Below, one piece after another: positions 40,600 through 55,140 of a stretch of DNA of 64,000 bases (positions within the stretch are counted from its first letter, which is position 1; the number at the start of each line of letters is the position of its first letter). Below the pieces are notes generated by a model. The model saw only the letters and a list, made by a program, of their open reading frames with translations, was not told where the DNA came from and ran no database searches. The stretch comes from Campylobacterales bacterium (GTDB lineage: Bacteria > Campylobacterota > Campylobacteria > Campylobacterales > Sulfurimonadaceae), in assembly GCA_016938735.1 (NCBI GenBank), contig JAFGUB010000032.1:124001-188000 (forward strand). The letters are read 5' to 3'. A program made the translations under genes and the position numbers.

Positions 40600-40684
40600 G
40601 CGACCGTGGTGGAATTGGTAGACACGCTATCTTGAGGGGGTAGTGCCAAACGGTGTATGAGTTCGAGTCTCATCGGTCGCACCA
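40600..40684 (+). tRNA. tRNA-Leu(GAG)
   Basis: Acceptor GCGACCG pairs perfectly with CGGTCGC, followed by ACCA (CCA encoded). The D arm has GGAATTGGTAGACAC, the anticodon stem is CTATC/GGTAG with loop TTGAGGG (anticodon GAG, 40634-40636), the variable arm is long (class II), and the T loop is TTCGAGT. Its 3' end marks the left junction of the integrated element. Confidence 0.97.
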
Positions 40685-40767
40685 CACGTTTCAAACTCCC
40701 TAAAATACGACATTCCAAGCCAACCAAAAAATCCAAATCATCAAGCTGCAATTATTGTCATTTTAAA

Positions 40768-40890
40768 AGTTATACAAGAGTTATACGACTTTGAGTTGTA
40801 CGATTTTGGGTTATACGACTTTGGGTTATACGATTTTGAGTTATACGATTTTGAGTTGTACGTTTTTGGCAAATTGAGTTATACGATTTT
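40768..40890 (+). repeat. Array of seven 15-bp direct repeats
   Basis: Consensus GRGTTRTACGAYTTT. Units start at 40778, 40793, 40808, 40823, 40838 and 40853, head to tail; the seventh starts at 40876 after an 8-base insertion. A partial unit (AAGTTATACAA) precedes the array. It lies 85-205 bp from the tRNA 3' end. It could hold integrase arm-type sites, iterons for element replication, or sites for a control protein. Confidence 0.9.
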
Positions 40891-40955
40891 GACAAAATAA
40901 ATTCTGTGCAACCATCCCGATTTTTTCTACAATTTTAGAAAAAAGGAGGATGCCC

Positions 40956-41156
40956 ATGTTTGGGATGCAGCTTAACGATCTCCAAGCTCTTATCAAGATG
41001 AGCAAAGATCAAGTAGTACGGATTGCACGCAAGATCCAACGCGATCTCGACATAATAGATGAGATCAGTGCCAGTATGCTGCTACTCGCATTACTTAGGC
41101 TCAATTACGCTTTGCACGAGTTTCGCAGCAGACTCTATTTGTGGTTTTGGGTGTAG
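40956..41156 (+). CDS. Small hypothetical protein of the element
   Basis: A 66-residue helical protein (MFGMQLNDLQALIKMSKDQV, then VRIARKIQRDLDIIDEISAS) ending in a hydrophobic stretch with aromatic residues (RLYLWFWV). AAGGAGG lies 6 bases before the ATG at 40956; an ATG at 40950 overlaps that site and is unlikely. Not recognised. Its place next to the repeats and opposite the integrase would suit a small DNA-binding or recombination-accessory protein, but no helix-turn-helix is evident. Confidence 0.5.
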   Translation: MFGMQLNDLQALIKMSKDQVVRIARKIQRDLDIIDEISASMLLLALLRLNYALHEFRSRLYLWFWV

Positions 41157-41217
41157 ATGCAAGCATTCACCCAGCAGGGTGTTAAGAGGGCAGGGTGATG
41201 TTGTCCCCGCCCCCAAG

Positions 41218-41850
41218 TCATCTGACCATACATATAGCTCTGTGCGTGTCCTCCTCGCTCGCTCGCGTGTAACGTGCCGTTGTCATCATCGATCTGTGAC
41301 CGATGTAGCTTTGGGCCACTACAAGCGGCAGATTATGCTTGACAATCATATCCGTGATTAATCCTTGACGAAATGAGTGAGACGAGTAAGACTCGTCCAG
41401 CGTCTCATGGATAAACTCATTGAGCCGCAAGGTAAAGTTTGCCTTGTTAAGCGGTGCTGTGGGGCTTGTCGCGTGAAAAACAAGGTGGCGATCGAGGTGC
41501 GCCGGGGAAATAAGCAGCTCTGCAAAATGCAGCTTTACCGCTTCTACGGCCGTCGGACTGAATTGCAGTAGCCTTGGCTTTTTTGTCTTTGTCTTCGATC
41601 CCTCTAATTGGCACTCCCCGGTCTCTATGGCTTTTCTCAAATCTCCCACTGTCAACGTCAAAAGTTCGCCTACACGCAGTCCGAGGTAGTAGAGCAGGGT
41701 GATCGATTGGCGATGACGCTCACTCACGTGACGTTGCAGGTGATTTGAGCCTTGGGTCGCTCGAATTAGATCTTGGTACTCACTTTCCCGGATAGCCTTG
41801 CGCTGTATGGATGTGCCTTGTGGGCGACCGACTTTTACTGTGTACATCAT
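41218..41850 (-). CDS. Tyrosine recombinase (integrase)
   Basis: A 210-residue compact phage-integrase-family protein with catalytic Arg in YLGLRVGELL, HxxR in SHSFRQG, His in IGHRSMMTT and nucleophile Tyr in TARYTRA. It has only a short N-terminal core-binding part and no clear arm-binding domain. The start is taken at 41850 (MMYTVKVGRPQG) with AAAGGAGTC upstream. It lies about 530 bp from tRNA-Leu, pointing toward it, as expected for the integrase of the element. Confidence 0.85.
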   Translation of the reverse strand: MMYTVKVGRPQGTSIQRKAIRESEYQDLIRATQGSNHLQRHVSERHRQSITLLYYLGLRVGELLTLTVGDLRKAIETGECQLEGSKTKTKKPRLLQFSPTAVEAVKLHFAELLISPAHLDRHLVFHATSPTAPLNKANFTLRLNEFIHETLDESYSSHSFRQGLITDMIVKHNLPLVVAQSYIGHRSMMTTARYTRASEEDTHRAICMVR

Positions 41851-41872
41851 TTGACTCCTTTTCTTGTTGCGG

Positions 41873-41889
41873 GTTTGGTATTTCCAAAC
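41873..41889. promoter_or_regulatory. Dyad in the integrase leader
   Basis: GTTTGG-TATTT-CCAAAC, perfect 6-bp arms, 23 bases upstream of the integrase start. It could be an operator or a leader hairpin controlling integrase expression. Confidence 0.4.
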
Positions 41890-42405
41890 GCCTAATGTCT
41901 TATAAAGCGAGCAAAAAAAATGCACGCGTGAAGACAACGGGCAATCGATGTAAAATTACCCCATATACTTTCATTTTACTGATAATATTAAGTTAGGTAT
42001 GACACTTTAAGCTAATGGATAGAGCAGGGTATTAATTGGTTTTTTTTACTATTGTTATGCGTTTAAGGTTTCGGATCATCGATCTGCTGACCGCATGAAA
42101 ACCCCTAAATATAGGGCTTTAAAGGGTGTCCGAGCAGGGCGAGGAATTATTTTAGGGTAAATTAATTGCTGGGTACATGAGGGGGTAGAGTGGGGTTTGG
42201 CTGTTGGATTTTGAGTGTATGTATAACAGTTTTTAGCAGTTTTGACAAGAGGAGCGGTTTTGACAGTTGAGATAGTGTAATGATATGTTGACGACAAACC
42301 TCGTCGATTTTGAGGGTATTTTTTGGAATAAATGCCAAGGCAGCATTTTAAACAGTAAAAGAAAATATATTTTCTTTATATATCTATAAACAGAAAAATA
42401 TTTGC
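41890..42405. other. Non-coding stretch of about 515 bp
   Basis: No convincing gene. It is A/T-rich and carries the integrase promoter region on the left and the promoter of the small-gene operon on the right. Two copies of GGTTTTGACA/AGTTTTGACA-like words occur at about 42236-42262, resembling the tail of the 15-bp repeat unit. Confidence 0.5.
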
Positions 42406-42411
42406 TATACT
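42406..42411 (+). promoter_or_regulatory. -10 box for the element's small-gene operon
   Basis: TTTGCTATACT gives TATACT with an extended TGC, 20 bases before the ATG at 42431, and an AAGGAG ribosome site between them. Confidence 0.5.
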
Positions 42412-42430
42412 TTGGCATAAGGAGCTACCA

Positions 42431-43048
42431 ATGAAAGAGCAAAGAATCGTAAACTACCGTATCGACAAAAAAGGCAGAAAATATTGGACCGCAACATACG
42501 TGGGGAAACCATGGACAGCGCAGATCGTCATCGATGATCTCACCAGTGGGTTTGAGGTGGGCCAAACCTATAGATTCCTCGCTGATGTGGAAAAAGAAAG
42601 CTCGTATTACGGCACAAAAGTCACTGTCACCGCTGTCAGTCTGAATGTGCCTGAGGAGACGGAAGCCGCGGAAGCACGTCGATCTGTCGAAAATATCGTC
42701 GCCTACATCGAAAAGAAAGCGTCGGATGGGAAATGGCACGAGATGGGCGAGACAAAGCTCGCGGGATTCGACAGCGGCCTCGTATCGTCGTATCTACCTC
42801 GCATCGAGGCCGCCAGAGAGGCCTATGAAAAAAAGGCCATCGCCTCGCTGGTGCGAAAAATAGAAGACTACGCCGCCAACGGCTTTGTCTACACTAAGGG
42901 CATCGCCGACTGCGAAGCCTTACACATAGCAAAATATCCAGACCTCATGGAGCGGGTCAACGCTGCGGTCACCAATGCCCATAAACAGCCCGCCAAAAAA
43001 AACAGCCAATCGTACCGGCCTTCGACCCCGAAAAATTGCGCACCATGA
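42431..43048 (+). CDS. Hypothetical element protein (205 aa)
   Basis: Not recognised. The N-terminal half (YWTATYVGKPWTAQIVIDDL, GQTYRFLADVEKESSYYGTK, VTVTAVSL) looks like a small beta-barrel, possibly OB-fold. The C-terminal half is helical and charged (YLPRIEAAREAYEKKAIASL), ending in a Lys/Pro/Ser tail. It could be a single-stranded nucleic-acid binding protein, but this is only a shape-based guess. It is the first gene of a tight operon with AAGGAG upstream; the next gene overlaps by ATGA. Confidence 0.6.
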   Translation: MKEQRIVNYRIDKKGRKYWTATYVGKPWTAQIVIDDLTSGFEVGQTYRFLADVEKESSYYGTKVTVTAVSLNVPEETEAAEARRSVENIVAYIEKKASDGKWHEMGETKLAGFDSGLVSSYLPRIEAAREAYEKKAIASLVRKIEDYAANGFVYTKGIADCEALHIAKYPDLMERVNAAVTNAHKQPAKKNSQSYRPSTPKNCAP

Positions 43049-43569
43049 GTGACACACAGATCATGAGGCTCAAAACAAACGAAAAGAAAGCCATGTCCAA
43101 AATAGGCCTCGCCATAGCCGAGACCCACCTCAGAAATGACGAGCGGGCCGACGACTTTGTCACCTACACCTGCTACGTCATCGACATGGCCGCAGTGCGC
43201 GCGCGCTATCCATTTATGGCGGAGGGGGCCACCGAAGAGGCGATTGCGCAGCAAACCGAGTCGCTGGCCCGTGAAAAAAGAGAGAAAATGGCAGCGAAGC
43301 TTAATGCCTACATGGCAAACTACGGCATCAGATTCGGGAGTACCATCACAAAGGAGGAAGTGGCGGCGATCAAAGCTGCAAAACAGATCAAAAACCCGGT
43401 TAGGACAAAAATGTATGACGCTGACCACTTCGCCGATATCGGTGACGGCCTGATCTGGCACTACACGTCGTTTTGGCTTGATGGTAGATATGAGGGTTTT
43501 GTTGGTTATCGGAAAGATGAGATTATGCCCCTTATTGAGGGGCTTTTAGCTTTGGAGAAACAAGAATGA
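43045..43569 (+). CDS. Hypothetical element protein (174 aa)
   Basis: Not recognised. Starts MSDTQIMRLKTNEKKAMSKI with mixed alpha/beta pattern, coiled-coil-like middle (ESLAREKREKMAAKLNAYMA) and a C-terminal HYTSFWLDGRYEGFVGYRKD segment. ATG overlaps the stop of the previous gene, and the next gene overlaps its stop in the same way, so the three are translationally coupled. Confidence 0.6.
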   Translation: MSDTQIMRLKTNEKKAMSKIGLAIAETHLRNDERADDFVTYTCYVIDMAAVRARYPFMAEGATEEAIAQQTESLAREKREKMAAKLNAYMANYGIRFGSTITKEEVAAIKAAKQIKNPVRTKMYDADHFADIGDGLIWHYTSFWLDGRYEGFVGYRKDEIMPLIEGLLALEKQE

Positions 43570-43781
43570 AGATGACAGATGTCCGACTTTGCGAGTTTGT
43601 GGGGATGACCCCCCAAAATCTCAGGGCGACCTATTCAAAGAGCAAAGACCCAAAAAAGAGGATGATGTATCTGTATATGTTTTTTGGGGCCATGCTGATC
43701 GAAGACGGCGTTGTGGATCTCGACGAAATAGCCCAAAAAAAACAGATGCTTAATCTTTTGACAGAGTATGCAGATGATTAG
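43566..43781 (+). CDS. Small hypothetical protein, possibly HTH-like
   Basis: A 71-residue protein. MTDVRLCEFVGMTPQNLRATYS resembles a short helix-turn-helix of the kind in phage regulators (VGMTPQNLR at the turn and recognition helix). It may regulate the operon. Coupled to the upstream gene by ATGA. Confidence 0.55.
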   Translation: MKMTDVRLCEFVGMTPQNLRATYSKSKDPKKRMMYLYMFFGAMLIEDGVVDLDEIAQKKQMLNLLTEYADD

Positions 43782-43905
43782 AAGCGAGGCAATTTACCCG
43801 CAAGAGGCTACAACGCAAGGGCCGGTAAATCCCCCTGCTGCCCCAAGCCTTACCGATAGCACCATTTTACATCAAAGCACCATAGGCGTCAAGCCCGACA
43901 CTTAG
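43768..43905 (+). CDS. Possible 45-aa small protein
   Basis: An open frame overlapping the end of the preceding gene; MQMIRSEAIYPQEATTQGPV, then Pro/Ser/Thr-rich. The ribosome site is weak, so coupling from the upstream gene would be needed. It may be spurious. Confidence 0.25.
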   Translation: MQMIRSEAIYPQEATTQGPVNPPAAPSLTDSTILHQSTIGVKPDT

Positions 43906-43990
43906 ACAAAAACGATGCACGTCATGATGATTTAAATTCTGTACATTTCGGCTCGAAACAGAGATAATTTAAATAAAAAAAGGAGTTAAA

Positions 43991-44407
43991 ATGAACTCGG
44001 TACAGGCGTTCGGGTGGTATCTTATTTTTGAGGGTCTCTGGGACGCCATCAAGCCCGAAGAGCATGACAAGATCGCAAAAATGGTCTTTGGTGTCAAGGC
44101 CAAAAAGGTGGACATCGAAGCCGTTGAGCGTGCTGTGGTAGAGGCCAAAAAAGTGCAGATGCAGACAGTGTACGACTATACCGACCCGGAGATCTCAGCG
44201 CTCAGACAGCGCATTGCAGGCGCGCTGTCATACGGCAGATTAAGCGCCGGCACAAACACTGCCATCTCTGATGCACTGGATGAGCTGGATCGCCTGCAGG
44301 ATCGTCTGGCCATATCTGCCGATGATGTCAAAGTGTATCTGCGTGAGGTACTTAAACAGATCAAGCACCTCGAATATGACGCACGCAAGGCGGTAAAAAA
44401 TGGGTAA
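43991..44407 (+). CDS. Hypothetical element protein (138 aa)
   Basis: Not recognised. AAAAGGAG ribosome site. The N terminus is hydrophobic-aromatic (MNSVQAFGWYLIFEGLWDAI); the rest is strongly helical with coiled-coil character (DALDELDRLQDRL, YLREVLKQIKHLEYDARKAV). It could be an oligomeric scaffold or regulatory protein. The next gene starts inside its 3' end. Confidence 0.55.
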   Translation: MNSVQAFGWYLIFEGLWDAIKPEEHDKIAKMVFGVKAKKVDIEAVERAVVEAKKVQMQTVYDYTDPEISALRQRIAGALSYGRLSAGTNTAISDALDELDRLQDRLAISADDVKVYLREVLKQIKHLEYDARKAVKNG

Positions 44408-44786
44408 CTCATTTCTCGATATGATCAACGGTGATTACCATTATGCAGGTCAGGATGGTGGCGGGGCAGGGCATGTCACGCACACGCCGCAGACGCCGAA
44501 GGCAAACAAAGATATGACAGGTCCGCTGTCACCGGCCACTATGCGGATCGGTGAGGTAGATGCCGCGATACGATTTATCAACTACTCTTTGCACCCTGAC
44601 CGCTACACCTTCAGCCGCAGCGAGATCGCGGGGGGTAAGGCGCATTACACTCGCTTTTTAAGCGCCCACCCGTGCGGGGACAAATCGCGCAAAATTGTCC
44701 GCAAAATGCTGATCGACATGGTGGATGGAGCCCATATCACGGCGCCCGAATATATCAATCTGCTGCGCGGTATTACGCTTTATTAA
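44400..44786 (+). CDS. Hypothetical element protein (128 aa)
   Basis: Not recognised. A Gly/His-rich N-terminal stretch (MINGDYHYAGQDGGGAGHVT), a Pro/Thr linker and a helical C-terminal domain (AAIRFINYSLHPDRYTFSRS, KIVRKMLIDMVDGA). Overlaps the preceding gene by 8 bases. Confidence 0.55.
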   Translation: MGNSFLDMINGDYHYAGQDGGGAGHVTHTPQTPKANKDMTGPLSPATMRIGEVDAAIRFINYSLHPDRYTFSRSEIAGGKAHYTRFLSAHPCGDKSRKIVRKMLIDMVDGAHITAPEYINLLRGITLY

Positions 44787-44847
44787 TTAAAGCTGTCAAT
44801 GTGAATGAATGACAACTTTAAGCCCTGTTTTTTAGGAATAAATTTGC

Positions 44848-44853
44848 TAAAAT
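44848..44853 (+). promoter_or_regulatory. -10 box for the helicase gene
   Basis: ATTTGCTAAAAT, the same extended -10 form as upstream of other genes here. It implies a leader of about 165 nt before the helicase ATG. Confidence 0.45.
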
Positions 44854-44913
44854 AACAGAGTCGTACAGCTTAGATTAGTACTTTGCTGCTTTTTGACAAA
44901 ACAAAAGGAGTTC

Positions 44914-44952
44914 GTCTTTTCTACCAAAGACTAACTGGAAACTAAATTTCCA
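44914..44952 (+). other. Two consecutive leader hairpins before the helicase gene
   Basis: GTCTTT-TCTACC-AAAGAC (44914-44931) and TGGAAA-CTAAA-TTTCCA (44936-44952), both perfect 6-bp stems, within the predicted 5' leader. An AAGGAG just before the first hairpin has no ATG at a usable distance. They may form a regulatory RNA structure. Confidence 0.4.
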
Positions 44953-45027
44953 TCTTAATTAAAAGCTACATATATACGGAGAAAAAGCTCAGGTAGAGAG
45001 GGGCACATGTAGCGTTGAGATCCTTCT

Positions 45028-46995
45028 ATGTCTGCTATTCCTACATTTACAAATAATCCAGTTGATGTTGATGTATTCGTCCAAAAAACAAAAATGATTT
45101 GGTGCGAAGAGATCGGCAACATTTCCAGCCATGCACTTGAAACTACATGGGCACAAAACGCCAATGCCATGAATTGCGTTGTCAGGAACAACATTGCTGG
45201 CAGACGCCCTATCAAGCATGTCATTGCCGCACCTACTGGCTCTGGCAAGACCCTCAGCACAATTATCTACTGCTCTATGCTCGAAAAAGACATTAAAGTT
45301 TTAGTTGTTACCAAATTAATCCGGGAAGCTGAGCGATTAGCGGCTGAAATCAACGTGAGATCAGCGGATGATAGAGCTCTTGCAGTTTTTGGTCATTCTA
45401 CTATAAGTCAAGATGAGATCTTACATGCCCAAGTGCTGATCTGCACGCATCAGATGTATTACAAGCACCATAGCAAGGAGCATTGGGTTTATTCTGATCA
45501 TCGTAGTCTCATTATCATCGATGAGGCGTTGGAAACGATAGAACAGCACTACATCACCAGTGTCGAATTGGACGATGTCATTCGACAGGTGGAATATCTC
45601 TCGATTGAGTTAGGAACAGATAAAATAAAAAATGCCTATGAAGTATTGATGCAATTTTCCAACAAAATCAAATCCTCTCCAGAAGGTAAATCGTTCAATC
45701 TGGTGATGAATTTTTCTAATGAGGTTGTTGATTTATTGGCGGAGGGGTCTTTCGATGCAGTGATCACGGAAATTCAGAGAGATGCATATTATCCTATTGG
45801 CATCGCCAGAAGTAGCAGTAGAGCAGTCAGAAAAAATAGCATCAGAGACTTTAAGGAAATCACTCTGATCAAAGTTCTCGGGTTGGTGTCGAGATCAAAT
45901 AATTTTACCGTCTATGCAAACGATAAGAATATTTTCTTCGTCAACGAAGTGCCTCATCGTCATTCTCTAATTGTTTTTGACGCAACAGGTGATGTGGCAA
46001 GAAGCTATGAGATTAGAAGTGACCACAGGCGCGATGTCAGAATTGTCCCAAAGATAGAAAACACCAGACGATATGACCATGTTACTATTAAGATAGCCAC
46101 GACTTTGACAGGTGCATCACATTTCCGAGATATCGAAAAAATCGAAAACATCATCAGCAATGTTGAATTCGGACAGCGCACTTTGTTCGTGGTGCATAAA
46201 GACAATAAACATGTCACAAAAATGAACAAAAGTCAAGAGCCTTTTACCGAGGCTCTTGCTAAATATGGTTATAAAAAGACGTACGGAAAGCGTCCAGAAG
46301 ATGTGTACGAGTATGCGAATCTCGATACGGGTCAAATTTTGTCGATCACTCACTGGGGGAACATCACGGGGCTCAATGATTGGAGTGACTATGATACATG
46401 TGTGCTTTTTGGACTTTTCCACAAGCCTTTGAATGTTGCGAGAGATCAAGCTATCTCATGTACGAATGTTTATTTTGCTTTTGACGACGCGAATCAGATG
46501 GAATTGGACAAGAGCATAGAAAGTTCAGAGCTGCTCGCAGAGGTAGTGCAAGCGATCAATAGGATTCGGGTTCGAAAAACTATTGACCAGAATGGCAATT
46601 GTGATGCTGCCAATATTTACGTCATGCTTGATTTCCATGGCGTGGAAGAGATGGTCGAAAAGCTGAGATCTTCCATGCCGGGATGCTCTATTAGTGATTG
46701 GGATGGCGTTAAAGTAAATAAAAAAAGCGCACAACGTAAAGACTACTTCGCAGAAATCATCAAACCTTACCTGATAAATGAGAAAAGCAGCATCAAATCG
46801 AGTGATCTTGTAAAAATGGTCTACGGTGAGATTACACCAAGAGCGAAGAATCGGGTTAAAGAGATTTTAAAAAAGAACGCACAAGAGATTGCATCACTTG
46901 GTTATCATATGCTCGAAGAGAGAATCTATTCAGGAAGACGCCCTGCATTGGAGTTGTTTTTGATATGTGTTGTTGACGATACATTTTTTTTGTAA
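45028..46995 (+). CDS. SF2 DEAD/DEAH-type helicase of the element
   Basis: A 655-residue helicase-like ATPase: Walker A APTGSGKTLS (near residue 73), motif Ia-like VVTKLIREAERLA, ICTHQMYYKH, Walker B LIIIDEALE (DEAL in place of DEAH/DEAD), and motif VI VVQAINRIRVRK near 520. The C-terminal 120 residues (IKPYLINEKSSIKSSDLVKM, ITPRAKNRVKEILKKNAQEI) look like a winged-helix DNA-binding domain as in replicative primase-helicases of mobile elements. It probably drives element replication. The ribosome site is weak. Confidence 0.7.
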   Translation: MSAIPTFTNNPVDVDVFVQKTKMIWCEEIGNISSHALETTWAQNANAMNCVVRNNIAGRRPIKHVIAAPTGSGKTLSTIIYCSMLEKDIKVLVVTKLIREAERLAAEINVRSADDRALAVFGHSTISQDEILHAQVLICTHQMYYKHHSKEHWVYSDHRSLIIIDEALETIEQHYITSVELDDVIRQVEYLSIELGTDKIKNAYEVLMQFSNKIKSSPEGKSFNLVMNFSNEVVDLLAEGSFDAVITEIQRDAYYPIGIARSSSRAVRKNSIRDFKEITLIKVLGLVSRSNNFTVYANDKNIFFVNEVPHRHSLIVFDATGDVARSYEIRSDHRRDVRIVPKIENTRRYDHVTIKIATTLTGASHFRDIEKIENIISNVEFGQRTLFVVHKDNKHVTKMNKSQEPFTEALAKYGYKKTYGKRPEDVYEYANLDTGQILSITHWGNITGLNDWSDYDTCVLFGLFHKPLNVARDQAISCTNVYFAFDDANQMELDKSIESSELLAEVVQAINRIRVRKTIDQNGNCDAANIYVMLDFHGVEEMVEKLRSSMPGCSISDWDGVKVNKKSAQRKDYFAEIIKPYLINEKSSIKSSDLVKMVYGEITPRAKNRVKEILKKNAQEIASLGYHMLEERIYSGRRPALELFLICVVDDTFFL

Positions 46996-47054
46996 GGTTG
47001 TTCGAGTAATTAGGGGTGTACTTGGCGGCTTAATTGCCCAGCTCGGATCAAGCC

Positions 47055-47143
47055 CCTTATGGGGGTTCGGAACAATCGAAGTCCTCTAAAAAGTTTCCAC
47101 CACCTCAAAACAAGAGCCCATAATGGAAGCGAGACAAGCTCGC
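47055..47143 (+). repeat. Imperfect direct repeat R1
   Basis: Starts CCTTATGGGGGTTCGGAACA and ends with the hairpin AAGCGAG-ACAAG-CTCGCTT. R2 (47213-47288) has the same start, the shared words TCGGAACAATCG and CAAGAGCCCATAA, and the same end hairpin. Confidence 0.7.
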
Positions 47144-47212
47144 TTGAACGTCTGTCTAAAATGTTTCCACCTCGTGCTTGGGCACCAATCCGGTCGCCTC
47201 TGCGGCTGAGCT

Positions 47213-47288
47213 CCTTATAGGGTCTCGGAACAATCGTTACATCCCATTTCAAGAGCAAGAGCCCATAAAGGACGCGAGACAAGCTCGC
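47213..47288 (+). repeat. Imperfect direct repeat R2
   Basis: Second copy of R1, slightly shorter in the middle. It carries GCGAG-ACAAG-CTCGC at its end. The spacing between the copies is 158 bp start to start. Confidence 0.7.
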
Positions 47289-47456
47289 ACGTAATCAGCC
47301 CTAATCTGCAATGACATGAAAGTATAAAAACACCAGAGCTAAAAGAGCAAGAGTGGGTGAGGGTATTATATGCGTTGTAGGCTATTTTTTTGAGCGTTGA
47401 TATTTTTAGTCGAGTGTTCGGTTTAGGGGCAGGGCTACCGTGAGAGGCGAACTCAT

Positions 47457-47508
47457 GATTATTCCGAACCCCTATATAGAAAAAGTCTAATAGGGGTTCG
47501 GAATAATC
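47457..47508. repeat. 52-bp perfect inverted repeat, copy 1
   Basis: Arms GATTATTCCGAACCCCTAT and ATAGGGGTTCGGAATAATC (19 bp, perfect) around the 14-base centre ATAGAAAAAGTCTA. Identical to copy 2. GAGAGGCGAA precedes both copies. As DNA it can form a cruciform, and as RNA a very stable hairpin. Confidence 0.95.
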
Positions 47509-47751
47509 AAAATAATATAAAAACAACAAAAACTAATTGACAAAATGCAACAACCGCAAAGCCCAAGCTGACAGTCAACGGCGACAGCCGCGCATTGCAG
47601 GAAAAACCCACAGACCCAAGAGACCGCACCGCAAAGTCAGAACCAAAGAAGGCGGTGAAGCCGCCGCAATTGTAGGAGAAAAGAACCGCAAAGACCAAAT
47701 CGACACACAAAGACGGGACAATCGAATCAAACAGCAGAGAGGCGAATCCAT

Positions 47752-47803
47752 GATTATTCCGAACCCCTATATAGAAAAAGTCTAATAGGGGTTCGGAATA
47801 ATC
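47752..47803. repeat. 52-bp perfect inverted repeat, copy 2
   Basis: Identical to copy 1 over all 52 bases, 295 bp away. Followed by the CTCTAAAAAGTTTCCACC word that also follows R1's related GGGGTTCGGAACAATC. Confidence 0.95.
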
Positions 47804-48150
47804 AAAATCCTCTAAAAAGTTTCCACCTCGAAATAGCCTAAAACGAACTTACCTACCCTTAGGTATGGCCTTATGGGGCGTTGGCAGTCGAATATCCATA
47901 CAAGAGAGACGGAGCAGGCTCACGGACGTGTAGAGTGCATCGTGCTCTTTTGACTGCCAGTTTGGGCTTTGCGGTTAGGGGTGTCTTGGTCTGCGGCTCA
48001 GTCGCTGTGATTTTTGCCATAATGCGGACGGCTATCGCCGCCGAATGTCAGCTTGGTTTTGTCGGCTCGGTATAGGCACCTAAGCTCGCCCACACATAGG
48101 TATGCCTTTGCAGGACGCCGGCAGGCGTTTGCTTTGCAGGTGGAAACTTT

Positions 48151-48477
48151 TTAGGCTTCGGCGAGCAGACGCATGTCGGTGCAAGCAAGCTGCAGCAGGC
48201 TCACGGACGTGTAGAGTGCGTCATACTCATTTGCCGTGATGAGGCGGTGGTAGAGCAGGTCGGCGATGACAGCGATGATCTCGCGGCGCTCGGCGTCTGG
48301 ATCTGGAGTTGGGCTGGTTTTTTGGAGAAAATCATTCGCCAGATAAAACGACTCCGGCGCGTGGTCCAGCAGCATTTCGATCAGCGATGAGGGCATGGAT
48401 TGGTTGAGCTCAAAGTCCCTGTCATCTCGCATCAGCATTTTGGCACTCAAAATCAGCATCAGTGTGTCGTAGTTCAT
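48151..48477 (-). CDS. Hypothetical element protein (108 aa)
   Basis: Not recognised. A helical protein (MNYDTLMLILSAKMLMRDDR, IIAVIADLLYHRLITANEYD). It is the last of three minus-strand small genes; ATG overlaps the upstream stop. Part of its 3' coding sequence (48194-48219) is duplicated exactly at 47913-47938. Confidence 0.55.
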   Translation of the reverse strand: MNYDTLMLILSAKMLMRDDRDFELNQSMPSSLIEMLLDHAPESFYLANDFLQKTSPTPDPDAERREIIAVIADLLYHRLITANEYDALYTSVSLLQLACTDMRLLAEA

Positions 48478-48902
48478 TCTTCACCTCCTTCTTGGTCTGG
48501 TTGGAGAAAATAGAAGTCAACCATACCCATGTAGTTTTTGACGGCCTGCACGATCTGCGTAGCCGTATCCTCCGCTGTTTTGGGGTTAATTATGCGGCTG
48601 TCAACGAGCCTGTCAAGTGTCTGGATAGATTGCGTCAGCGCATTGATGATGAGGGTGTTTTGGTGCATTTGTTGGCGCTGTGCATGTAGCGCAAAGTTGG
48701 CGATCCGATCCCTTTGCCGCTCGTAGTCCCCCACCATGTAGCTTTCGAGCTTTTGGAGTTCGGCGATGATGTCCTCTTCGGGCACATTGCTCAGCGATTT
48801 GCCGAAAGCCTCGAAGCTGAGACGCTCGGCGACATAGAGGATGATGTCTGGGCGCATCATGACCCGATGCAGCGCCGCGGTGATGGGTAGGTTGTTGTAC
48901 AT
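48474..48902 (-). CDS. Hypothetical element protein (142 aa)
   Basis: Not recognised. All-helical, with likely coiled coil (IIAELQKLESYMVGDYERQR and following residues) and an acidic C terminus (QPDQEGGEE). AACAGGAGT-type ribosome site. Coupled to the downstream gene. Confidence 0.55.
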   Translation of the reverse strand: MYNNLPITAALHRVMMRPDIILYVAERLSFEAFGKSLSNVPEEDIIAELQKLESYMVGDYERQRDRIANFALHAQRQQMHQNTLIINALTQSIQTLDRLVDSRIINPKTAEDTATQIVQAVKNYMGMVDFYFLQPDQEGGEE

Positions 48903-48926
48903 TTTTTACTCCTGTTTTTGTAGGCC

Positions 48927-49343
48927 TTATTGTAGGCCGTCGAAAAAGACCGGCTGGGCCGATAGTATTTTACGGACTTTGTCCCGATCAAAAATCGTGA
49001 CCCGCGAGTCACGGGCGATCATCTGGTCGATCACATCTTGGTCTCGTCTTGCGTAACGCATCAGCTCTTGGCACACCTGATCTTGCGACCCTAACATTTT
49101 GCACACCGGGTGATCCCGATAAACATATCCGCATGCCAAATATGGCATGCGATCGATATAGTCATCCGGGTAATTGGCGATATACAGGCTCGCGTCGGCA
49201 AGCACATCGTCGTGATTTGGGTAGGGCATTTTGATGGTCCTATTGCCGCATACATGCTCCTCGACAAAAAAGTAGTAGTAGGCGTAGTATGCCCGCAAGA
49301 CGAGCGCGGCGTAGGTGACAGCGTACTCTTTGTGCAGTTGCAT
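48927..49343 (-). CDS. Hypothetical element protein (138 aa)
   Basis: Not recognised. The N terminus is Tyr-rich (YAALVLRAYYAYYYFFVEEH) and the C terminus has DRDKVRKILSAQP. AGGAGGTGT ribosome site. First gene of the three-gene operon, divergent from 49471. Confidence 0.55.
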   Translation of the reverse strand: MQLHKEYAVTYAALVLRAYYAYYYFFVEEHVCGNRTIKMPYPNHDDVLADASLYIANYPDDYIDRMPYLACGYVYRDHPVCKMLGSQDQVCQELMRYARRDQDVIDQMIARDSRVTIFDRDKVRKILSAQPVFFDGLQ

Positions 49344-49470
49344 TTACACCTCCTATTGTATGTCATATTTATAACACTATATGCGCGTTATGTCAAGAAT
49401 TAAAGCGCTTAAATGATCTCTATCGCGTTAATTATGTGCGTCATAATGCTTAAAACAACAAGGACGACAC

Positions 49471-49869
49471 ATGATCAAGACATTAAGCATTACCGCGGCA
49501 CTTATTCTTGCCGCATCGGCGCAAACCCTGTATCTAAAATCTGGGCCTGTAGAGCTCAAGCCCGTTGAACAAACACGATCTGCCGGTAAAGTGCGCTACT
49601 ACGAGCTTGCTGACGGTACCAAAGCCGGGGTCGGGGATATAGCGCTTGTAAAGGCCGATCTGATGGACGCTGCGGTAGCACATATTTTCGGGCGTCACGG
49701 GGCGGAGGTGTTGCGCGTATATCCGACCGGATTGGTTAAGGTGCGCGCCAGCGATGTGCTCACGATGGTCAGTGAGCTTAACGCTTTGCCCGCTGTAAAA
49801 TTTGCCGAGCCGTCATGCAGCTCCCCTATTTGCTCCACCCTGACTTTTGTCATCACAGCTGTCAAATGA
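49471..49869 (+). CDS. Exported protein resembling a peptidase propeptide, probably truncated
   Basis: A 132-residue protein with a signal peptide (MIKTLSITAALILAASAQ) and a domain reminiscent of the N-terminal prodomain of subtilase-type (S8) exported peptidases (VRYYELADGTKAGVGDIALV, VYPTGLVKVRASDVLTMVSE, LPAVKFAEP). No catalytic domain follows. After FAEP the frame runs into an unrelated Cys-containing tail, so this looks like a gene remnant or a free inhibitor-like propeptide. The family match is by eye and weak. Confidence 0.5.
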   Translation: MIKTLSITAALILAASAQTLYLKSGPVELKPVEQTRSAGKVRYYELADGTKAGVGDIALVKADLMDAAVAHIFGRHGAEVLRVYPTGLVKVRASDVLTMVSELNALPAVKFAEPSCSSPICSTLTFVITAVK

Positions 49870-49982
49870 CCCTTACAACCTTGCAAACATACCTCGAAAG
49901 CCGTGACAGTCAAGGCCGACAGATGTGGTATGACATTGATATCACAGATGCACACAAAATCCGCGATCGACTAAATCAGTGA
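49866..49982 (+). CDS. Possible 38-aa small protein
   Basis: ATG overlaps the stop of the preceding gene (ATGA). MTLTTLQTYLESRDSQGRQM, ending IRDRLNQ. It may be translated by coupling or be a remnant; nothing recognisable. Confidence 0.3.
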   Translation: MTLTTLQTYLESRDSQGRQMWYDIDITDAHKIRDRLNQ

Positions 49983-50037
49983 CTACACGCCGAGATATCA
50001 GGATGTGGCTGGCCGGGTTTGATGCCTACAGATCAAG

Positions 50038-50202
50038 ATGAATGTCACCGGACATTTCGCGCCGGTGACGTTCATCGACAAGAAAGCTGTCATCCACTTC
50101 TTCTACTACAAGCACCAAATCGCAAGTCTTTGTCCCGATCCCGAATACAGAGAGTTGATCTACAAGTACCAAGAAAAAGATTTCGCTGAGATCCTGAGGT
50201 AA
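50038..50202 (+). CDS. Possible 54-aa small protein or gene fragment
   Basis: MNVTGHFAPVTFIDKKAVIH, then FFYYKHQIASLC and YRELIYKYQEKDFAEILR. The amino-acid composition looks protein-like, but no ribosome site is evident and a strong hairpin covers its start, so it may be the 3' remnant of a broken gene. Confidence 0.3.
   Translation: MNVTGHFAPVTFIDKKAVIHFFYYKHQIASLCPDPEYRELIYKYQEKDFAEILR
50040..50073. other. Strong 12-bp hairpin
   Basis: GAATGTCACCGG (50040-50051) pairs with CCGGTGACGTTC (50062-50073), one G-T pair, loop of 10 bases. It lies at the border between the small-gene region and the defence operon. No T run follows on either strand. Confidence 0.6.
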
Positions 50203-50262
50203 ACTACCGTGGATGGGATTTGAAATGTCTTTTCTGATTTGAAGACTGCATCTTTTTAAAAC

Positions 50263-53250
50263 TCAAGCATTCAAGCTTTTTTGATGATTCCACATCACAT
50301 CAAAAATGAACTCTTGATAGCGTTTTTGAAAACTATCATCATCGACAAACTTCTTAAAAATCTCGGTATGCGTGAACATCAGGTTCTGCATTACTTCCTG
50401 CAATCTTTTGTCAAGAGCTATTTTTGCATTCTGTCTGTCAGAATTTTTCATTGTATTAAGCATAGCGCCATCCGATTGCAACGATTGCGGAATGTCTTGC
50501 GTAAGTATCTGATTTACCTTGTCGGGGTCAGCCCATTTGATATCACCAAACCGGACATTAAATGCTTTAAGAATGCTTTCCAAGCTATCTCTCTCACCAC
50601 CACCCTTGCCACCGCCCGGTTCAACTGGAGCAGGGTCAACAACTCCATCTTCATCATTCAGGCCGATATCTGTCTTTTTGTCACGGCTGAGTCTGTAGCT
50701 GTCCATATTGACCGTTTCAATAATATTCTCATCCTCTTTGTTGCTTTCAATGTGCAGTTTGGGTATTAGCAGTTTAAGATAGAGCCACATTTTTTCCCAT
50801 ATCTGCTTCTTGAAGTCAAGTAGCTTTGAAAGATAGCTATAGGTTCTGACAAAGGATTTGGCCTTAACCTTGAAATCAATCTTCTCATCTTCGCCCAGCT
50901 CACTATCAAAAATCGCCACACCCCTATCAATGATGGCATCAATATCCGCTCGATTGTTCTCTTTCGAGTAATATGCTTCAAAGAGCCTGTCCAAATCTTC
51001 TTGACTAAAAAGCTGATACCCTTCGAGGCCATCTTGCAGGTCATTCAGTTTATTCGGGTCAGTTCCTTCGCTCAGAATCGTGGTGGTAAAATACGGGTCG
51101 AAAGCTTCCTTGATTTCTTCAGTCGTGTTGTAAAAATCCAGAACAAAAGTATCGTTTTTGTATGGTTTATAGGCTCGGTTGAGTCGTGAAAGTGTCTGAA
51201 CAGCCTGAACATCCGCCAGCTTCTTATCGACATACATTGTATGCAGCAGCGGTTCGTCAAATCCTGTCTGGTACTTGTTGGCAACAATCAAAAATCGGTA
51301 TTCAGCCTTCTTGAACTGTTTGGGTATGTCGCTAATACCATCCTCAAAAGGGTTCATGCTTACTTCGGTGTAATCGATTCCCTTGTAGTTCTTTGTTCCT
51401 GAAAATGCAACGATAGCTTTATAAGTTGAGTTGATTTCCTTCAAGTATTCATCGAAAGCCTGTCGGTATTTGATGGCACTCTCAATACTTTTGGTCACCA
51501 CCATCGCCTTTGCTTTTCCATCAATGAGATGTTTGACATCCTTATGAAAGTGGTCAATCATCACACGGGCTTTCTGACCTATAGAAAACTCATGACCCTC
51601 AACGTATGCGCGAAGCTTTTTCTGTGCCTGCTTAGTTTCAAAATCCGGGTTGCCCTCAACTGCCTTAACGAGCTTGTAATAGGAGTTGTAGGTCGTATAG
51701 TTTTTCAGCACATCAAGAATGAACTCTTCTTCAATGGCCTGTTTCATTGAATAGAGATGGAACGGATAGTATCGCCCGTCATCACCCTTGCGACCAAAGG
51801 TTTCGAGGGTTTTATTTTTCGGTGTTGCGGTAAAGGCGAAGTAGCTTGCATTAGTGAGCATTTGGCGAGACTCGACAAGATAGTCGATATAACTTTCCGT
51901 ATCAATATTGCCTTCTTCATCCCGCAACTCTTCAATATCCTTGTTTGCAAGTACCGCGTTCATTTTTGCTGCGTTGTCACCGCTCTGAGAACTGTGAGCC
52001 TCATCGATAATAATGGCAAACTTGGCATTGGCAAGTACGCCAATCTCCTGTAGAACAAAGGGGAATGTCTGCACGGTAGTAATAATGATTTTTTTTCTGT
52101 TCGCCAGTGCTGCACCGAGTTGCCCACGCTTCGTATCTGACTTGCCGGTAATGGCCTCCACAACATTCTTGACCTGTGCAAATGCCTTGATATTGTCTCG
52201 TATCTGCTTGTCCAGTACCGTTCTGTCCGTTACGACAATGATGCTGTCGAAAATTGCCTTGTCTTCATTGTCATGCAGGCCTACAAGCTGATGCGCAAGC
52301 CATGTAATACTGTTCGACTTGCCTGACCCGGCGGAATGCTGAATAAGATAACGTTTCCCTACACCCTTTTGTTTTACGTCGGAAAGTAACTGCCGAACAG
52401 CGGTTAGTTGATGATACCGTGGGAATATCATCTTCCTTTTGGTTTTACCTGTATCAGGGTCTTTTTCAACCAGAAGCTGGGCAAACTTCTCGATGATGTT
52501 TGAGAGTGACGATTTGGTTAATACCTCTTTGTACAGATAGTCGGTCTTGATGCCACTTAAATTTACTGGATTTCGTGCACCGTATGGTGGATACGGTCTG
52601 CCTTCATTTTGTCCTTTGTTGAAAGGGAGAAAAAAAGTTTTTTTACCCTTGAGTTCAGTGGACATAAAGACATCATCGGTATCAGCGGCAAAGTGCACCA
52701 AACATCTGCCAAAGTTTAGCAACAAGTCTTTTGGATCTCGGTCATTCTGATACTGCCTGATGGCGTGCTTGACTGCCTGTCCTGTGAAGGCATTCTTCAG
52801 CTCCATCGTAACCACTGGAAGACCGTTGATAAAAATTACAAGGTCAATGCGGTTTGCATGAGCATCGCTGTATACCAGCTCTTCCGTGACGCTGAAGATA
52901 TTGGCATCATAGTTTTTCTTGCTGGCCTCATTAAGCGCACTGACCGGCTCAGGATAGAAGAGCTGGACGGTTTTGTCAAAGTACTTCACCCCTTTGCGCA
53001 GGGTTTCGACGATGCCATCATTGCGAATTTTTTTATCAAGTCTGACCAGAAATGCCCGCTCGCCCTTGCTTTGAATCGTCGCCAGTGTTTCAGGTTGGGT
53101 TTCCCTCAGGAAAGAGATGAGTTGAGCTTTGTTGATGGCGAACTCTTTTTCGAAGTCGGTTGAAAAGCTCTGAACATAATCACCGCTGTCAGTCAGCTCT
53201 TGAATAATGAGTTTCTGGAAGCCTTTTTCACTTGTGTCAGCGTGTGTCAT
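50263..53250 (-). CDS. hsdR: Type I restriction enzyme subunit R
   Basis: The 995-residue motor-nuclease subunit. The N-terminal PD-(D/E)XK nuclease has NRIDLVIFINGLPVVTMELK. The SF2 translocase has Walker A QHSAGSGKSNSI, Walker B FAIIIDEAHSSQSG, FTATPKNKTLETFG and TLSRLNRAYK (motif VI). A C-terminal helical region binds the methylase core. It cuts DNA lacking the host methylation. Its ATG directly abuts the stop of the S-4TM gene, so it is translated from the same operon as hsdM and hsdS although three kilobases of cargo separate them. Confidence 0.95.
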   Translation of the reverse strand: MTHADTSEKGFQKLIIQELTDSGDYVQSFSTDFEKEFAINKAQLISFLRETQPETLATIQSKGERAFLVRLDKKIRNDGIVETLRKGVKYFDKTVQLFYPEPVSALNEASKKNYDANIFSVTEELVYSDAHANRIDLVIFINGLPVVTMELKNAFTGQAVKHAIRQYQNDRDPKDLLLNFGRCLVHFAADTDDVFMSTELKGKKTFFLPFNKGQNEGRPYPPYGARNPVNLSGIKTDYLYKEVLTKSSLSNIIEKFAQLLVEKDPDTGKTKRKMIFPRYHQLTAVRQLLSDVKQKGVGKRYLIQHSAGSGKSNSITWLAHQLVGLHDNEDKAIFDSIIVVTDRTVLDKQIRDNIKAFAQVKNVVEAITGKSDTKRGQLGAALANRKKIIITTVQTFPFVLQEIGVLANAKFAIIIDEAHSSQSGDNAAKMNAVLANKDIEELRDEEGNIDTESYIDYLVESRQMLTNASYFAFTATPKNKTLETFGRKGDDGRYYPFHLYSMKQAIEEEFILDVLKNYTTYNSYYKLVKAVEGNPDFETKQAQKKLRAYVEGHEFSIGQKARVMIDHFHKDVKHLIDGKAKAMVVTKSIESAIKYRQAFDEYLKEINSTYKAIVAFSGTKNYKGIDYTEVSMNPFEDGISDIPKQFKKAEYRFLIVANKYQTGFDEPLLHTMYVDKKLADVQAVQTLSRLNRAYKPYKNDTFVLDFYNTTEEIKEAFDPYFTTTILSEGTDPNKLNDLQDGLEGYQLFSQEDLDRLFEAYYSKENNRADIDAIIDRGVAIFDSELGEDEKIDFKVKAKSFVRTYSYLSKLLDFKKQIWEKMWLYLKLLIPKLHIESNKEDENIIETVNMDSYRLSRDKKTDIGLNDEDGVVDPAPVEPGGGKGGGERDSLESILKAFNVRFGDIKWADPDKVNQILTQDIPQSLQSDGAMLNTMKNSDRQNAKIALDKRLQEVMQNLMFTHTEIFKKFVDDDSFQKRYQEFIFDVMWNHQKSLNA

Positions 53251-54153
53251 TTACTCTCCCTTAGGTGCATACTTTTCAAGGATTTTTTCGTTCGTAGCAG
53301 ATAACTTTTTATTGGTGCCATCTTTAAAAAGCTTATAAAACCAATCTGGAATCAAGACTGAGCGAATTCTATTTTCACTGTATATGTAATCCTGATAAAT
53401 ACGGCAGCGCTGCTTTTCGTTAATAGCTTTAAAATTTTCACAATCGTGCAATATTTTTTTATCGACACTCCTGTTTTGAACAATTTGCCGATTCAAATTT
53501 CTTGATGTTTTGAAACTTAGATAAAAGAGTGGAATCAGTGGGAAGACGATAAATATTAGTGAGTCCTGAAAAGACATATTGAAATAAAAAGCTATGGATA
53601 TAGCGAATAGCGCAATGAAGCCTATAAGCAGGTCTGTAAGCACTTTATATTTGGTTTTCAGTTCATTGCCCCAGATAATATTCATTCGCTGTGCAATTAA
53701 TACTTTTAAGTAATGCGGGGCATCCCGTTCCTCACCATACCAATTTTGCAATGCTTCATCATCTCCTTTGAATGCTTGCTGTCCATCGAATATTTTCTCT
53801 TCACTGATGCCTTCCAGAATCAGTACATCATTTCTGTGGATATCAAAGACGCGTACATCAAATTCCTCTTGCGCTTTCGCTCCATGGGCGATGAACTTGT
53901 CTGCGTATTGCTCCAAAAAGTACATAATAAGAATCCAAACCAGTCCAATACTGATAACAAGAGCATCGTATTCGAGTTCGATGCCAGCAACATTTTTTGC
54001 GTAGCGATAGCCCATATACACCAAAGGCAATACAATACTTACTATGAGCACTACAGTTTTGATATTTTTTGCTTTTGAATAAAAATAGCGCATCGCTCTG
54101 AGAAGTTCGAGGTTGGTTCCCATGTTTTGATTTGCAAACATCAATATCCCCAT
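53251..54153 (-). CDS. S-4TM-type pore-forming CBASS effector
   Basis: A 300-residue membrane protein with two transmembrane hairpins: about 33-52 (TVVLIVSIVLPLVYMGYRY), 64-81 (ALVISIGLVWILIMYFL), 172-191 (LLIGFIALFAISIAFYF) and 198-215 (IFIVFPLIPLFYLSF). A soluble segment lies between the hairpins and a charged C-terminal tail follows. This matches the S-4TM family of putative pore-forming effectors encoded beside CD-NTases. On phage infection, a cyclic nucleotide would open the pore and kill the cell. Its ATG abuts the CD-NTase stop; ATG at 54141 is an alternative start. Confidence 0.68.
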   Translation of the reverse strand: MGILMFANQNMGTNLELLRAMRYFYSKAKNIKTVVLIVSIVLPLVYMGYRYAKNVAGIELEYDALVISIGLVWILIMYFLEQYADKFIAHGAKAQEEFDVRVFDIHRNDVLILEGISEEKIFDGQQAFKGDDEALQNWYGEERDAPHYLKVLIAQRMNIIWGNELKTKYKVLTDLLIGFIALFAISIAFYFNMSFQDSLIFIVFPLIPLFYLSFKTSRNLNRQIVQNRSVDKKILHDCENFKAINEKQRCRIYQDYIYSENRIRSVLIPDWFYKLFKDGTNKKLSATNEKILEKYAPKGE

Positions 54154-55140
54154 TTATCCGTATTGCGGAAAATCGCTTCCAAATATCTCGCGCCATTTGG
54201 CAATAGCCTTACGCATATCTTGGTCATTTGTTTCGAATGAGATGGCTTGTTTGGCTTTATCGTAAGACTCTTTAGCCTTTTCAGATATTTTTTGCCTGTC
54301 ATACCAGCCATGAGTATTGATGTCTCCTTGAAAACCTTTGGGGTCCATTACTGGGTTGTAAATAGCATTTTCTAAATGGCTCCAAAAGTCTCGTAGTTCA
54401 AAATCGATGTATTCGGAAACTTCATACTTTGAATCATAAAAATTAAGAATCATAATTTCGAAGAGGTATGAAGACATAGTGGGCATTGTCGGTCTTTTTT
54501 GCCAGTACTTCAGAGTCCGAATAATTTGAAGTATTTTGCCGTTATGTTTTTGGTTTACACTTGATACGTTCGTCTGGTCAACCCGAGGGTCTGTAGCTTT
54601 CCAGTTGCCGCTTCCATCGGGAATCAAGTAAAAATCAGCAGTTGTAAAAAATGCTGGGACAATGTCAAAGTTCCATTCATAAGAAGTAAGTGAAAGTGTG
54701 GCTGCCTCTTGTCTTCTATGGATATCAGCCTTTTTATAGTGCTCAATTTCTGACAAACCACTTACCAATTTGTTGATAAGCTTTCTTGAATTTAATATAC
54801 CATCATCGCACATTGGCCATAAATATTTTGCATCTTCAGGAACATGGATGACATATTCTTTGCCATATGAGTATTCAGTGTAAGTCGCTCCTGACGCTTT
54901 AAATGCCAATAACAGGTCAATATCATCTAATTCTCGAATCTTCGTATTTCTTGCGAAAGAGCCAAATTTAATGTGTTTTTCGTCGTAAAGAAAGGGAAAG
55001 TCTAATATTTTTGTAGGAAGCTTACAGAGCTGTTCTATTAGCCAATTACGGCTTTTTCGTGCTGTTTTAGTTCGTTCTGAATCCAGATTGACATAATCGC
55101 GGTTGAACTCGGTAAATGCCCCATTGACTGTTGTTGCCAC
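54154..55140 (-). CDS. CD-NTase (CBASS cyclic-nucleotide synthase)
   Basis: A 328-residue nucleotidyltransferase of the cGAS/DncV-like (SMODS) group. The sequence shows the GS motif (FGSFARNTKI, Gly60-Ser61), the catalytic DxD (LDDIDLLLAF, Asp73 and Asp75) and the third Asp in WNFDIVPAFF (Asp159). A helical C-terminal half follows with IIRTLKYWQKRPTMPTMSSY, typical of the OAS/CD-NTase fold. On infection it should make a cyclic oligonucleotide that activates the membrane effector encoded next. No Cap2/Cap3 (E1/JAB) genes are present, so this is a minimal type I CBASS. The product nucleotide and clade cannot be read from sequence by eye. Confidence 0.8.
   Translation of the reverse strand: MATTVNGAFTEFNRDYVNLDSERTKTARKSRNWLIEQLCKLPTKILDFPFLYDEKHIKFGSFARNTKIRELDDIDLLLAFKASGATYTEYSYGKEYVIHVPEDAKYLWPMCDDGILNSRKLINKLVSGLSEIEHYKKADIHRRQEAATLSLTSYEWNFDIVPAFFTTADFYLIPDGSGNWKATDPRVDQTNVSSVNQKHNGKILQIIRTLKYWQKRPTMPTMSSYLFEIMILNFYDSKYEVSEYIDFELRDFWSHLENAIYNPVMDPKGFQGDINTHGWYDRQKISEKAKESYDKAKQAISFETNDQDMRKAIAKWREIFGSDFPQYG

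Follow-up and report, generated by a model that had tools for sequence, protein, structure and literature searches.

The helicase locus and its island

The stretch of DNA considered here, referred to as the window, encompasses 64,000 nucleotides (nt) of a 2.85-Mb draft genome of the Campylobacterota and corresponds to region 124001-188000 of its source contig. It harbors a gene for a divergent superfamily 2 (SF2) helicase, preceded by six small open reading frames (ORFs), P1 to P6. An earlier note on this DNA had taken these genes for a coupled operon and, together with a nearby 15-bp repeat array, for the possible replication module of a new integrative element or phage satellite. All of the genes lie inside one 37,886-bp island, which is bounded on the left by an intact tRNA-Leu(gag) gene and on the right, outside the window, by a 34-bp copy of the 3' end of that tRNA. 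Read from its sequence, the block is part of an integrative island inserted at the tRNA-Leu(gag) 3' end, and the helicase is probably a replication gene of a poorly known element class.

The integration target is the tRNA-Leu(gag) gene called by ARAGORN at 40600..40684 on the plus strand. The left attachment core, attL, is a 34-bp direct repeat at 40652..40685 (plus strand), and its identical counterpart, attR, is found at contig positions 202538-202571, ending 14,571 bp past the end of the window. The left part of the island occupies 40686..64000, with the remaining 14.6 kb extending past the window up to attR. At the left end, a tyrosine recombinase of 239 amino acids (aa), counted from the first possible start, is encoded on the minus strand at 41218..41937; it matches Pfam PF00589 (E 4.3e-19) and represents hardly more than the catalytic domain. 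At the right end, a 396-aa integrase (contig 201175-202365) lies beside attR, preceded by a helix-turn-helix (HTH) gene (contig 200769-201170). PF00589 is present in two of the 33 island proteins (Pfam, E <= 1e-6), and a third recombinase-like ORF (L004:15348-16217) gives a weak Pfam match (E 0.034).

The same chromosomal site was sought in related genomes. In 21 of 28 fetched loci of relatives, the same ATP synthase c-subunit gene is closely followed by tRNA-Leu(gag), and in a 22nd the tRNA was called across a contig end. These loci are around 2-3.3 kb each, and most are too short to reveal an unoccupied site. In one of the genomes (G014, locus L104), the c-subunit gene and a tRNA-Leu lie directly beside a homologue (42% identity) of the gene that flanks the island on its right, which corresponds to the site in its unoccupied form.

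The short-repeat array is located at 40765..40890 on the plus strand, beginning 80 bp inside attL, and is composed of an 11-bp-spaced pair (40765-40789) that is extended by 15-bp-spaced copies. The first unit pair, AAAAGTTATACAAGAGTTATACGAC (25 bp), is found exactly at both ends of the island, at 40765-40789 and, in extended coordinates, at 78385-78409. AGTTATACGA has 12 near-matches in 88 kb, of which nine fall at these two ends. Because this repeat motif is common to both, the two ends appear to belong to one element. The att repeat, the integrases, the like short repeats at both ends, and the unoccupied site in G014 together support the earlier suggestion of an integrative element.

The helicase, encoded at 45028..46995 on the plus strand, is a protein of 655 aa with the two-domain SF2 motor and its motifs I (APTGSGKT), II (IIIDEAL), III, and VI (QAINRIRVR). 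Its predicted structure (pLDDT 72) gives a Foldseek match to DinG at E 7e-14. In structure alignments, DinG (6fws) and CasDinG score Z 19.2-20.4 over 415-508 residues; the top row is DinG, with Z 20.4 and an rmsd of 7.0 A over 508 residues, around 3 above the DEAD-box rows for a model of this pLDDT. Other DinG rows score Z 16.3-17.9, DEAD-box helicases around 16-17, and XPD 15.3-16.0 over 440-486 residues. Identity to the top solved structures is 12-14%. A sequence search of the PDB with the window helicase returned no match, and the family profile gave generic motor matches only; matches in a viral fold library include many helicases, mostly without names. The protein is a divergent SF2 protein whose predicted fold appears nearest to that of DinG and CasDinG.

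In an alignment of 25 sequences, to which the window helicase is 17-31% identical, residues G71, G73, K74, D165, E166, Q508, R512, and R516 are kept in 23 to 25 of the sequences. Motif II among the relatives consists of DE followed by two variable residues (DEAL, DEAI, DEQI, DEKL, DERI, DESL, DESY, DEAF, DEAM, or DEAC). The DEAL box highlighted previously is hence present, but is variable in the family and not peculiar to the window protein. No column has cysteine in more than half of the 25 sequences to indicate a four-cysteine Fe-S domain between motifs I and II. The tail, described in the earlier note as winged-helix-like, is helical and HTH-like in the model, with moderate confidence.

The small ORFs upstream (42431-44786, plus strand) form two short chains. 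P1 (205 aa, 42431..43048), P2 (174 aa, 43045..43569), and P3 (71 aa, 43566..43781) are joined by ATGA overlaps, and P5 (138 aa, 43991..44407) is joined to P6 (128 aa, 44400..44786) by an 8-nt overlap. Between the chains, P4 (43768..43905), a 45-aa ORF that overlaps P3 by 14 nt, is doubtful as a gene because its composition is flat across the three codon positions (0.53/0.51/0.53); P5 begins beyond an 85-nt gap and has an AGGAG of its own. Of the five coupled genes originally proposed, the overlaps within each chain stand; the passage from one chain to the other does not. Nor, from its sequence context, is the helicase coupled to P1-P6, since it is set apart by a 241-nt gap after P6, by the lack of a clear Shine-Dalgarno sequence (judged by eye), and by a GC content at third codon positions (GC3) of 0.43 versus 0.55-0.62 for P1, P2, P3, P5, and P6.

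P5 and P6 are duplicated, with the window copy at 43955-44782 and an inverted copy (contig 198957-199762, minus strand) near the other end of the island, in which the frame of P5 is broken and P6 is intact. The two P6 proteins share 80% aa identity, and their genes have 15, 13, and 32 differences at codon positions 1, 2, and 3; the resulting dN/dS of 0.23 argues that P6 is a real protein. A full subtilase (L004:16872-18833) adjoins the second P6 copy, and a short secreted ORF that by eye resembles a subtilase pro-region is found at 49471-49869, 4.7 kb to the right of P6 itself.

The small proteins were previously described as unrecognized, and they remain so. In searches of Pfam, PHROGs, and NCBIfam, none of P1-P6 has a Pfam or NCBIfam match past the cut-off, and the best match overall is that of P2, scanned minus its first residue, to a PHROGs family (E 0.0043). 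No relative was found in viral contigs for P1, P2, or P6, nor in the plasmid collection for P1, P2, P5, or P6, and a single-sequence structure model of P1 is poor (pLDDT 65). A joined P1-P6 query, with P4 omitted, recovered only its own genome among 398, which is a weak negative given that no more than two candidates were scored in each genome and that the second P5-P6 copy, known to exist, was not recovered. That P1-P6 and the helicase nevertheless make up one replication operon would be in keeping with their shared strand, their proximity, and the translational coupling within P1-P3 and P5-P6. We regard this as highly improbable in light of the 241-nt gap, the differing GC3, the absence of any BLASTP relative of P1-P6 in the 24 other helicase loci, and the inverted second P5-P6 pair some 28 kb from the helicase. 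P1-P6 are better viewed as island genes outside the conserved backbone, and what survives of the proposed replication module is the helicase, as a backbone gene with a probable role in replication.

Relatives of the helicase and the elements that carry them

Relatives were collected by helicase homology alone. Used as a single protein, the helicase query found one of 99 other relatives (G079), and a two-row profile found the family in three of 397 genomes of the phylum, its own included, with G195 adding two copies. One family searched for the helicase had it in two of 44 genomes. A non-exhaustive, pattern-based scan covering 84,980 species genomes gave 34 stretches and seven relatives, from Shewanella, Nitrospinaceae, Aquamicrobium, two Mesorhizobium, Hyphomicrobiaceae, and Sulfurimonas; four of the seven are labeled as metagenome-assembled genomes (MAGs). 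One of the Mesorhizobium genomes holds a second helicase copy. With an 11-row profile, the order of the other Mesorhizobium (G473) yielded 16 of 297 genomes, made up of G473 itself, 10 genomes with E < 1e-80, and five with remote relatives (G495, G576, G595, G702, and G724). In the 295 genomes of the order of the Shewanella MAG (G470), the only true member is that of G470 itself, the other 10 of the 11 matches being stretches of 49-90 residues with E 5e-5 to 1e-3. Since this order yields only the member of the query genome, the class appears patchy in its distribution. Mesorhizobium, Nitrospinaceae, and Sulfurimonas belong, according to the NCBI taxonomy, to the Pseudomonadota, Nitrospinota, and Campylobacterota, respectively.

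A core of 22 related loci was defined. Three remote loci (L070, L071, and L072), in which neither an integrase nor an att repeat was found, are outside this core, as are L068 and L069, which are remote yet att-bounded and are counted among the bounded elements described below.

The helicase is linked to tyrosine integrases. An integrase lies within 5 kb in 14 of the 22 core relatives, and within 1.3 kb in 11 of these, in comparison to an expected number of 0.69. The expectation assumes an even scatter of the integrases counted by Pfam in each genome, and the observed integrases come from our own profile, which was trained partly on the same helicase loci. In an independent whole-genome Pfam search, the integrases of at least seven core loci (L020-L023, L066, L067, and L073) are among the matches listed, and the G079 integrase was confirmed by a separate Pfam search.

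In 12 elements, that of the window included, the helicase and an integrase are enclosed by direct repeats of 17-83 bp derived from the 3' end of a tRNA or tmRNA. The other 11 are 6.7-13.8 kb in size. Nine are from the 22 core loci, with repeats of 59 bp (G079), 17 (L017), 51 (L020), 76 (L021), 78 (L022), 22 (L024), 83 (L025), 21 (L059), and 21 bp (L060), and two are from remote relatives, with repeats of 17 bp (L068) and 61 bp (L069); the 17-bp repeats are the weakest. The smallest of all, from Aquamicrobium (L021 6477-13210, 6.7 kb), contains, besides the helicase, two integrases, a serine resolvase, and a single further gene of at least 90 aa.

Three families are common to more than five of 25 loci in a count that leaves out opposite-strand ORFs inside genes: the helicase (25), the integrase (18), and a serine recombinase/resolvase (10). 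The last is found in the named alphaproteobacteria and in genomes of the Mesorhizobium order, with the Resolvase domain recognized by Pfam in three. Among loci of the Campylobacterota type, the helicase is preceded in L017 and G079 by an AlpA-like or other HTH gene, and a Cro/CI-type gene is found in G079, L017, and L018. In L064 (7294-8082) and L065 (9968-10744), related proteins of around 260 aa are encoded directly before the helicase with a one-base overlap; they contain cysteines and histidines (by eye), and the L064 copy has no Pfam match past the cut-off.

Repeat pairs also recur at the ends of these elements. A 10-mer pair spaced by 10-16 bp is found within 250 bp of the core at 22 of the 24 ends of the 12 att-bounded elements, where control windows from within these elements predict 1.58; this spacing test was designed after the first score had been seen and is exploratory. 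Both ends clearly share the pair motif in nine of the 12 (the window, L017, L021, L022, L024, L025, L059, L060, and L068), sharing is weak in L020 and L069, and there is none in G079. By the first score, a count of 10-mer copies, 0 of 60 control windows are as high as the left end of the window element, as compared with 6 of 60 for L024, 13 of 60 for L025, and at least 37 of 60 for the other 21 ends. Integrase arm-type sites of the lambda and Tn916 types show such an end-repeat pattern, and the 15-bp array is best read, in an exploratory sense, as a set of putative integrase arm sites. Replication iterons are rejected as a reading of the array, and its assignment to a replication module is not supported, as no comparable array is found near the other family helicases and repeat pairs occur instead at most element ends.

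The earlier note held that its reading would fail if the genes clearly matched a replication module already known from plasmids or phages, and no such match was found. Neither the window helicase nor its Mesorhizobium relative matches anything in collections of plasmids (72,556 records) or phages (50,697 records), and two scans of viral contigs gave no relative of the window helicase. The G079 helicase, searched in the plasmid collection only, has one weak match (26% coverage, E 2e-4). With the window helicase without a match in the plasmid, phage, and viral-contig collections, a phage or plasmid module is rejected.

Cargo, replication, and the probable role of the helicase

The strongest hint of a link to replication comes from the remote relative L069, where a 910-aa protein (8024-10756) has RepB_primase and PriCT_2 domains ahead of the region that matches the helicase profile. 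This fusion lies in an 8.2-kb element bounded by tRNA-Val repeats. No relaxase, type IV secretion system (T4SS) or other secretion, virion, or known Rep family was recognized in the 33 proteins of the window island (Pfam, E 1e-6), and the Pfam families listed for the 82 other proteins of the 11 bounded elements, which covers those of at least 90 aa except one that crosses two stretches, likewise include no relaxase, T4SS, virion, or Rep family. As there is no other recognized replication gene, the single-stranded DNA-binding protein SSB aside, the helicase is the obvious candidate for such a function. The 22 core related loci, together with the primase fusion, support its assignment as a backbone gene that probably acts in replication.

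Directly after the helicase of the window is a repeat-rich region without recognized genes (46996..48150). It contains two 94%-identical copies (47442-47523 and 47737-47818), each with a perfect 20-bp inverted repeat around a 14-nt loop (47456-47509 and 47751-47804; DNA fold z -12 for the first copy), and it has no other match in the source draft genome. The inverted repeats would form two strong hairpins and are a candidate origin, terminator, or regulatory site; the 1.15-kb region as a whole is likewise a candidate origin or regulatory region.

The cargo of the window island includes a type I restriction-modification cluster of HsdR, HsdS, and HsdM (50263..60124, minus strand), which encloses, on the same strand, a CBASS-like pair of a 4TM effector (53251-54153) and an oligonucleotide cyclase (54154-55140) and, beside the pair, an HTH/IrrE-type protein (55156-56241). 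The recognized families among the 82 other proteins of the 11 bounded elements are mainly restriction and other defense, ArdA, SSB, BRO-type, and resolvase families, and the defense genes across elements encompass restriction-modification, McrBC, Vsr, SIR2, OLD-type, and CBASS systems. No Cas family is among the Pfam families listed for the island and the elements, although no search aimed at cas genes was made.

Such cargo raises the question of whether the helicase itself is a defense gene, a single-gene or accessory anti-phage function carried as one more passenger. Elements of this kind often hold defense genes, the window helicase has a weak PADLOC match to the type IV CRISPR DinG model (E 6.4e-9), and its predicted fold matches few structures better than that of the CRISPR-associated DinG. 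However, four other helicases of the family have no PADLOC match, the helicase recurs beside the integrase while the cargo changes, and one remote relative is fused to a primase. Defense genes are common in plasmid and phage collections, in which the window and Mesorhizobium helicases find no match. A defense role is, on balance, unlikely.

A further possibility is that the helicase serves in excision or transfer, by assisting recombination or through the processing of DNA destined for transduction or uptake, rather than in replication. The short distance to the integrase (no more than 1.3 kb in 11 of the 22 core loci) would agree with this, as would the excisionase-like HTH genes next to the helicase in G079 and L017 of the Campylobacterota type. 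To our knowledge, however, lambda-type tyrosine recombinases need no helicase; the primase fusion and the resolvases are better suited to replication, and no relaxase or packaging gene was recognized. We consider this explanation improbable.

The reading we prefer, and hold to be reasonably probable, is that the helicase is a backbone gene of small integrative elements that target tRNA and tmRNA genes, and that it opens DNA for replication. The recurring parts of these elements would be a tyrosine integrase and the divergent SF2 helicase, with an AlpA-like HTH protein or a serine resolvase in some lineages and a variable, often anti-phage, cargo. The integrase would bind the short direct-repeat arm sites inside each end and recombine the tRNA-derived core to give an excised circle. 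The helicase, guided by its HTH-like tail, would then open the DNA so that the circle could be copied, either by host enzymes or, in one remote relative, by the primase fused to the helicase itself. In the alphaproteobacterial members, the resolvase may act to resolve multimers.

Several observations weigh against this reading. The window island is three times the size of the other elements, has more than one recombinase gene, and contains the inverted second P5-P6 copy, from which it may be composite. No integrase was seen in the available DNA of seven of the 22 core loci, of which L019, L061, and L063 are near contig ends and L058, L062, L064, and L065 have longer flanks, and the integrase of L020 is 7.5 kb from the helicase, though within its att bounds. 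In 13 of the 22 core loci, several of which are without a tRNA or on a short contig, the search for an att repeat gave none. Motif I is incomplete in the core member L062, and L067 is truncated at the end of its contig. The primase fusion occurs in a remote relative, in which the N-terminal part of the motor is poorly aligned. Several loci come from metagenome assemblies, so the host names may be wrong, and some members could be defense loci that are habitually near integrases.

The presence of helicase relatives in inserted elements of distant bacteria suggests an overlooked class of mobile element, often with phage-defense genes. A bolder version would have the loci constitute one undescribed class of autonomous elements in at least three bacterial phyla, scarce among known plasmids and phages, whose replication is initiated by the DinG-like SF2 helicase, either by itself or fused to a RepB-type primase. 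This we advance tentatively, as a possibility that falls somewhat short of an even chance. Replication initiation in known elements relies on SF3, AAA+, or DnaB-type helicases, or on Rep endonucleases, and the initiation of replication by this helicase, if it takes place, would be an uncommon task for a DinG-like motor. The elements would then act as small replicating carriers that move anti-phage islands from one tRNA site to another, and with a cargo rich in restriction and anti-phage systems they may carry bacterial immunity. For many genomic islands it is not known how they replicate or are transferred, and the shared helicase beside an integrase would provide a handle on both. The unannotated helicase could also act as a marker for integrative elements that plasmid and phage collections seem to miss.

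Comparison with known systems

Islands targeted to tRNA genes have long been known as a kind; the pairing of the helicase with the integrase appears to be the new part. No paper found by title and abstract in the full-text literature, from which subscription journals are mostly missing, describes the class.

With respect to the protein, DinG and CasDinG are the best fold matches of the window helicase. DinG and XPD helicases have DEAH in motif II and a four-cysteine Fe-S domain between motifs I and II, the latter being absent from CasDinG. The family described here differs from DinG in its DE-x-x motif II (DEAL in the window), in having no conserved Fe-S cysteines, and in its integrase neighborhood. 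XPD is also in the Foldseek top ten, but its Z is no higher than that of DEAD-box helicases, and the motif differences are the same as for DinG.

Among known elements, P4-like satellites and phage-inducible chromosomal islands (PICIs) are compact and integrated and encode an integrase, an AlpA-type regulator, and a replication enzyme. The present elements resemble them in this plan and may be phage satellites, some members having AlpA-type HTH and repressor genes. No packaging or capsid-redirecting Pfam family was recognized in the window island or among the families listed for the 11 elements. Integrative conjugative and mobilizable elements differ in turn, as no relaxase or type IV secretion family is found in the scanned proteins.

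The defining genes of GInts are three integrases and one for a small protein, and the word helicase is absent from the main text that describes them (PMC5385486). The Pseudomonas tmRNA islands are reported to share genes for IntY, AlpA, RadC, YqaJ, an HTH protein, and an inovirus Gp2-like protein, and one such island is moved by a jumbo phage (PMC12595487). Likenesses to the elements described here include the tmRNA or tRNA target, the flanking direct repeats, the tyrosine integrase, an AlpA-type HTH protein in some members, the defense cargo, and the absence of recognized self-transfer genes. However, the recurring gene in the present elements is the DinG-like SF2 helicase, which sets them apart from those islands as described there.

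Finally, the cryptic integrated elements of Thaumarchaeota are reported to have no discernible signature genes, although one of them, NitDev-E3, is said to encode a superfamily 2 helicase (PMC6563490). These elements, too, are small and integrase-bearing and have diverse replication genes; for NitDev-E3 the comparison is with its description only. Whereas the thaumarchaeal elements are archaeal and so described, the elements considered here have a single helicase family in common across three bacterial phyla, and it is this protein that we propose as the signature gene of the class.

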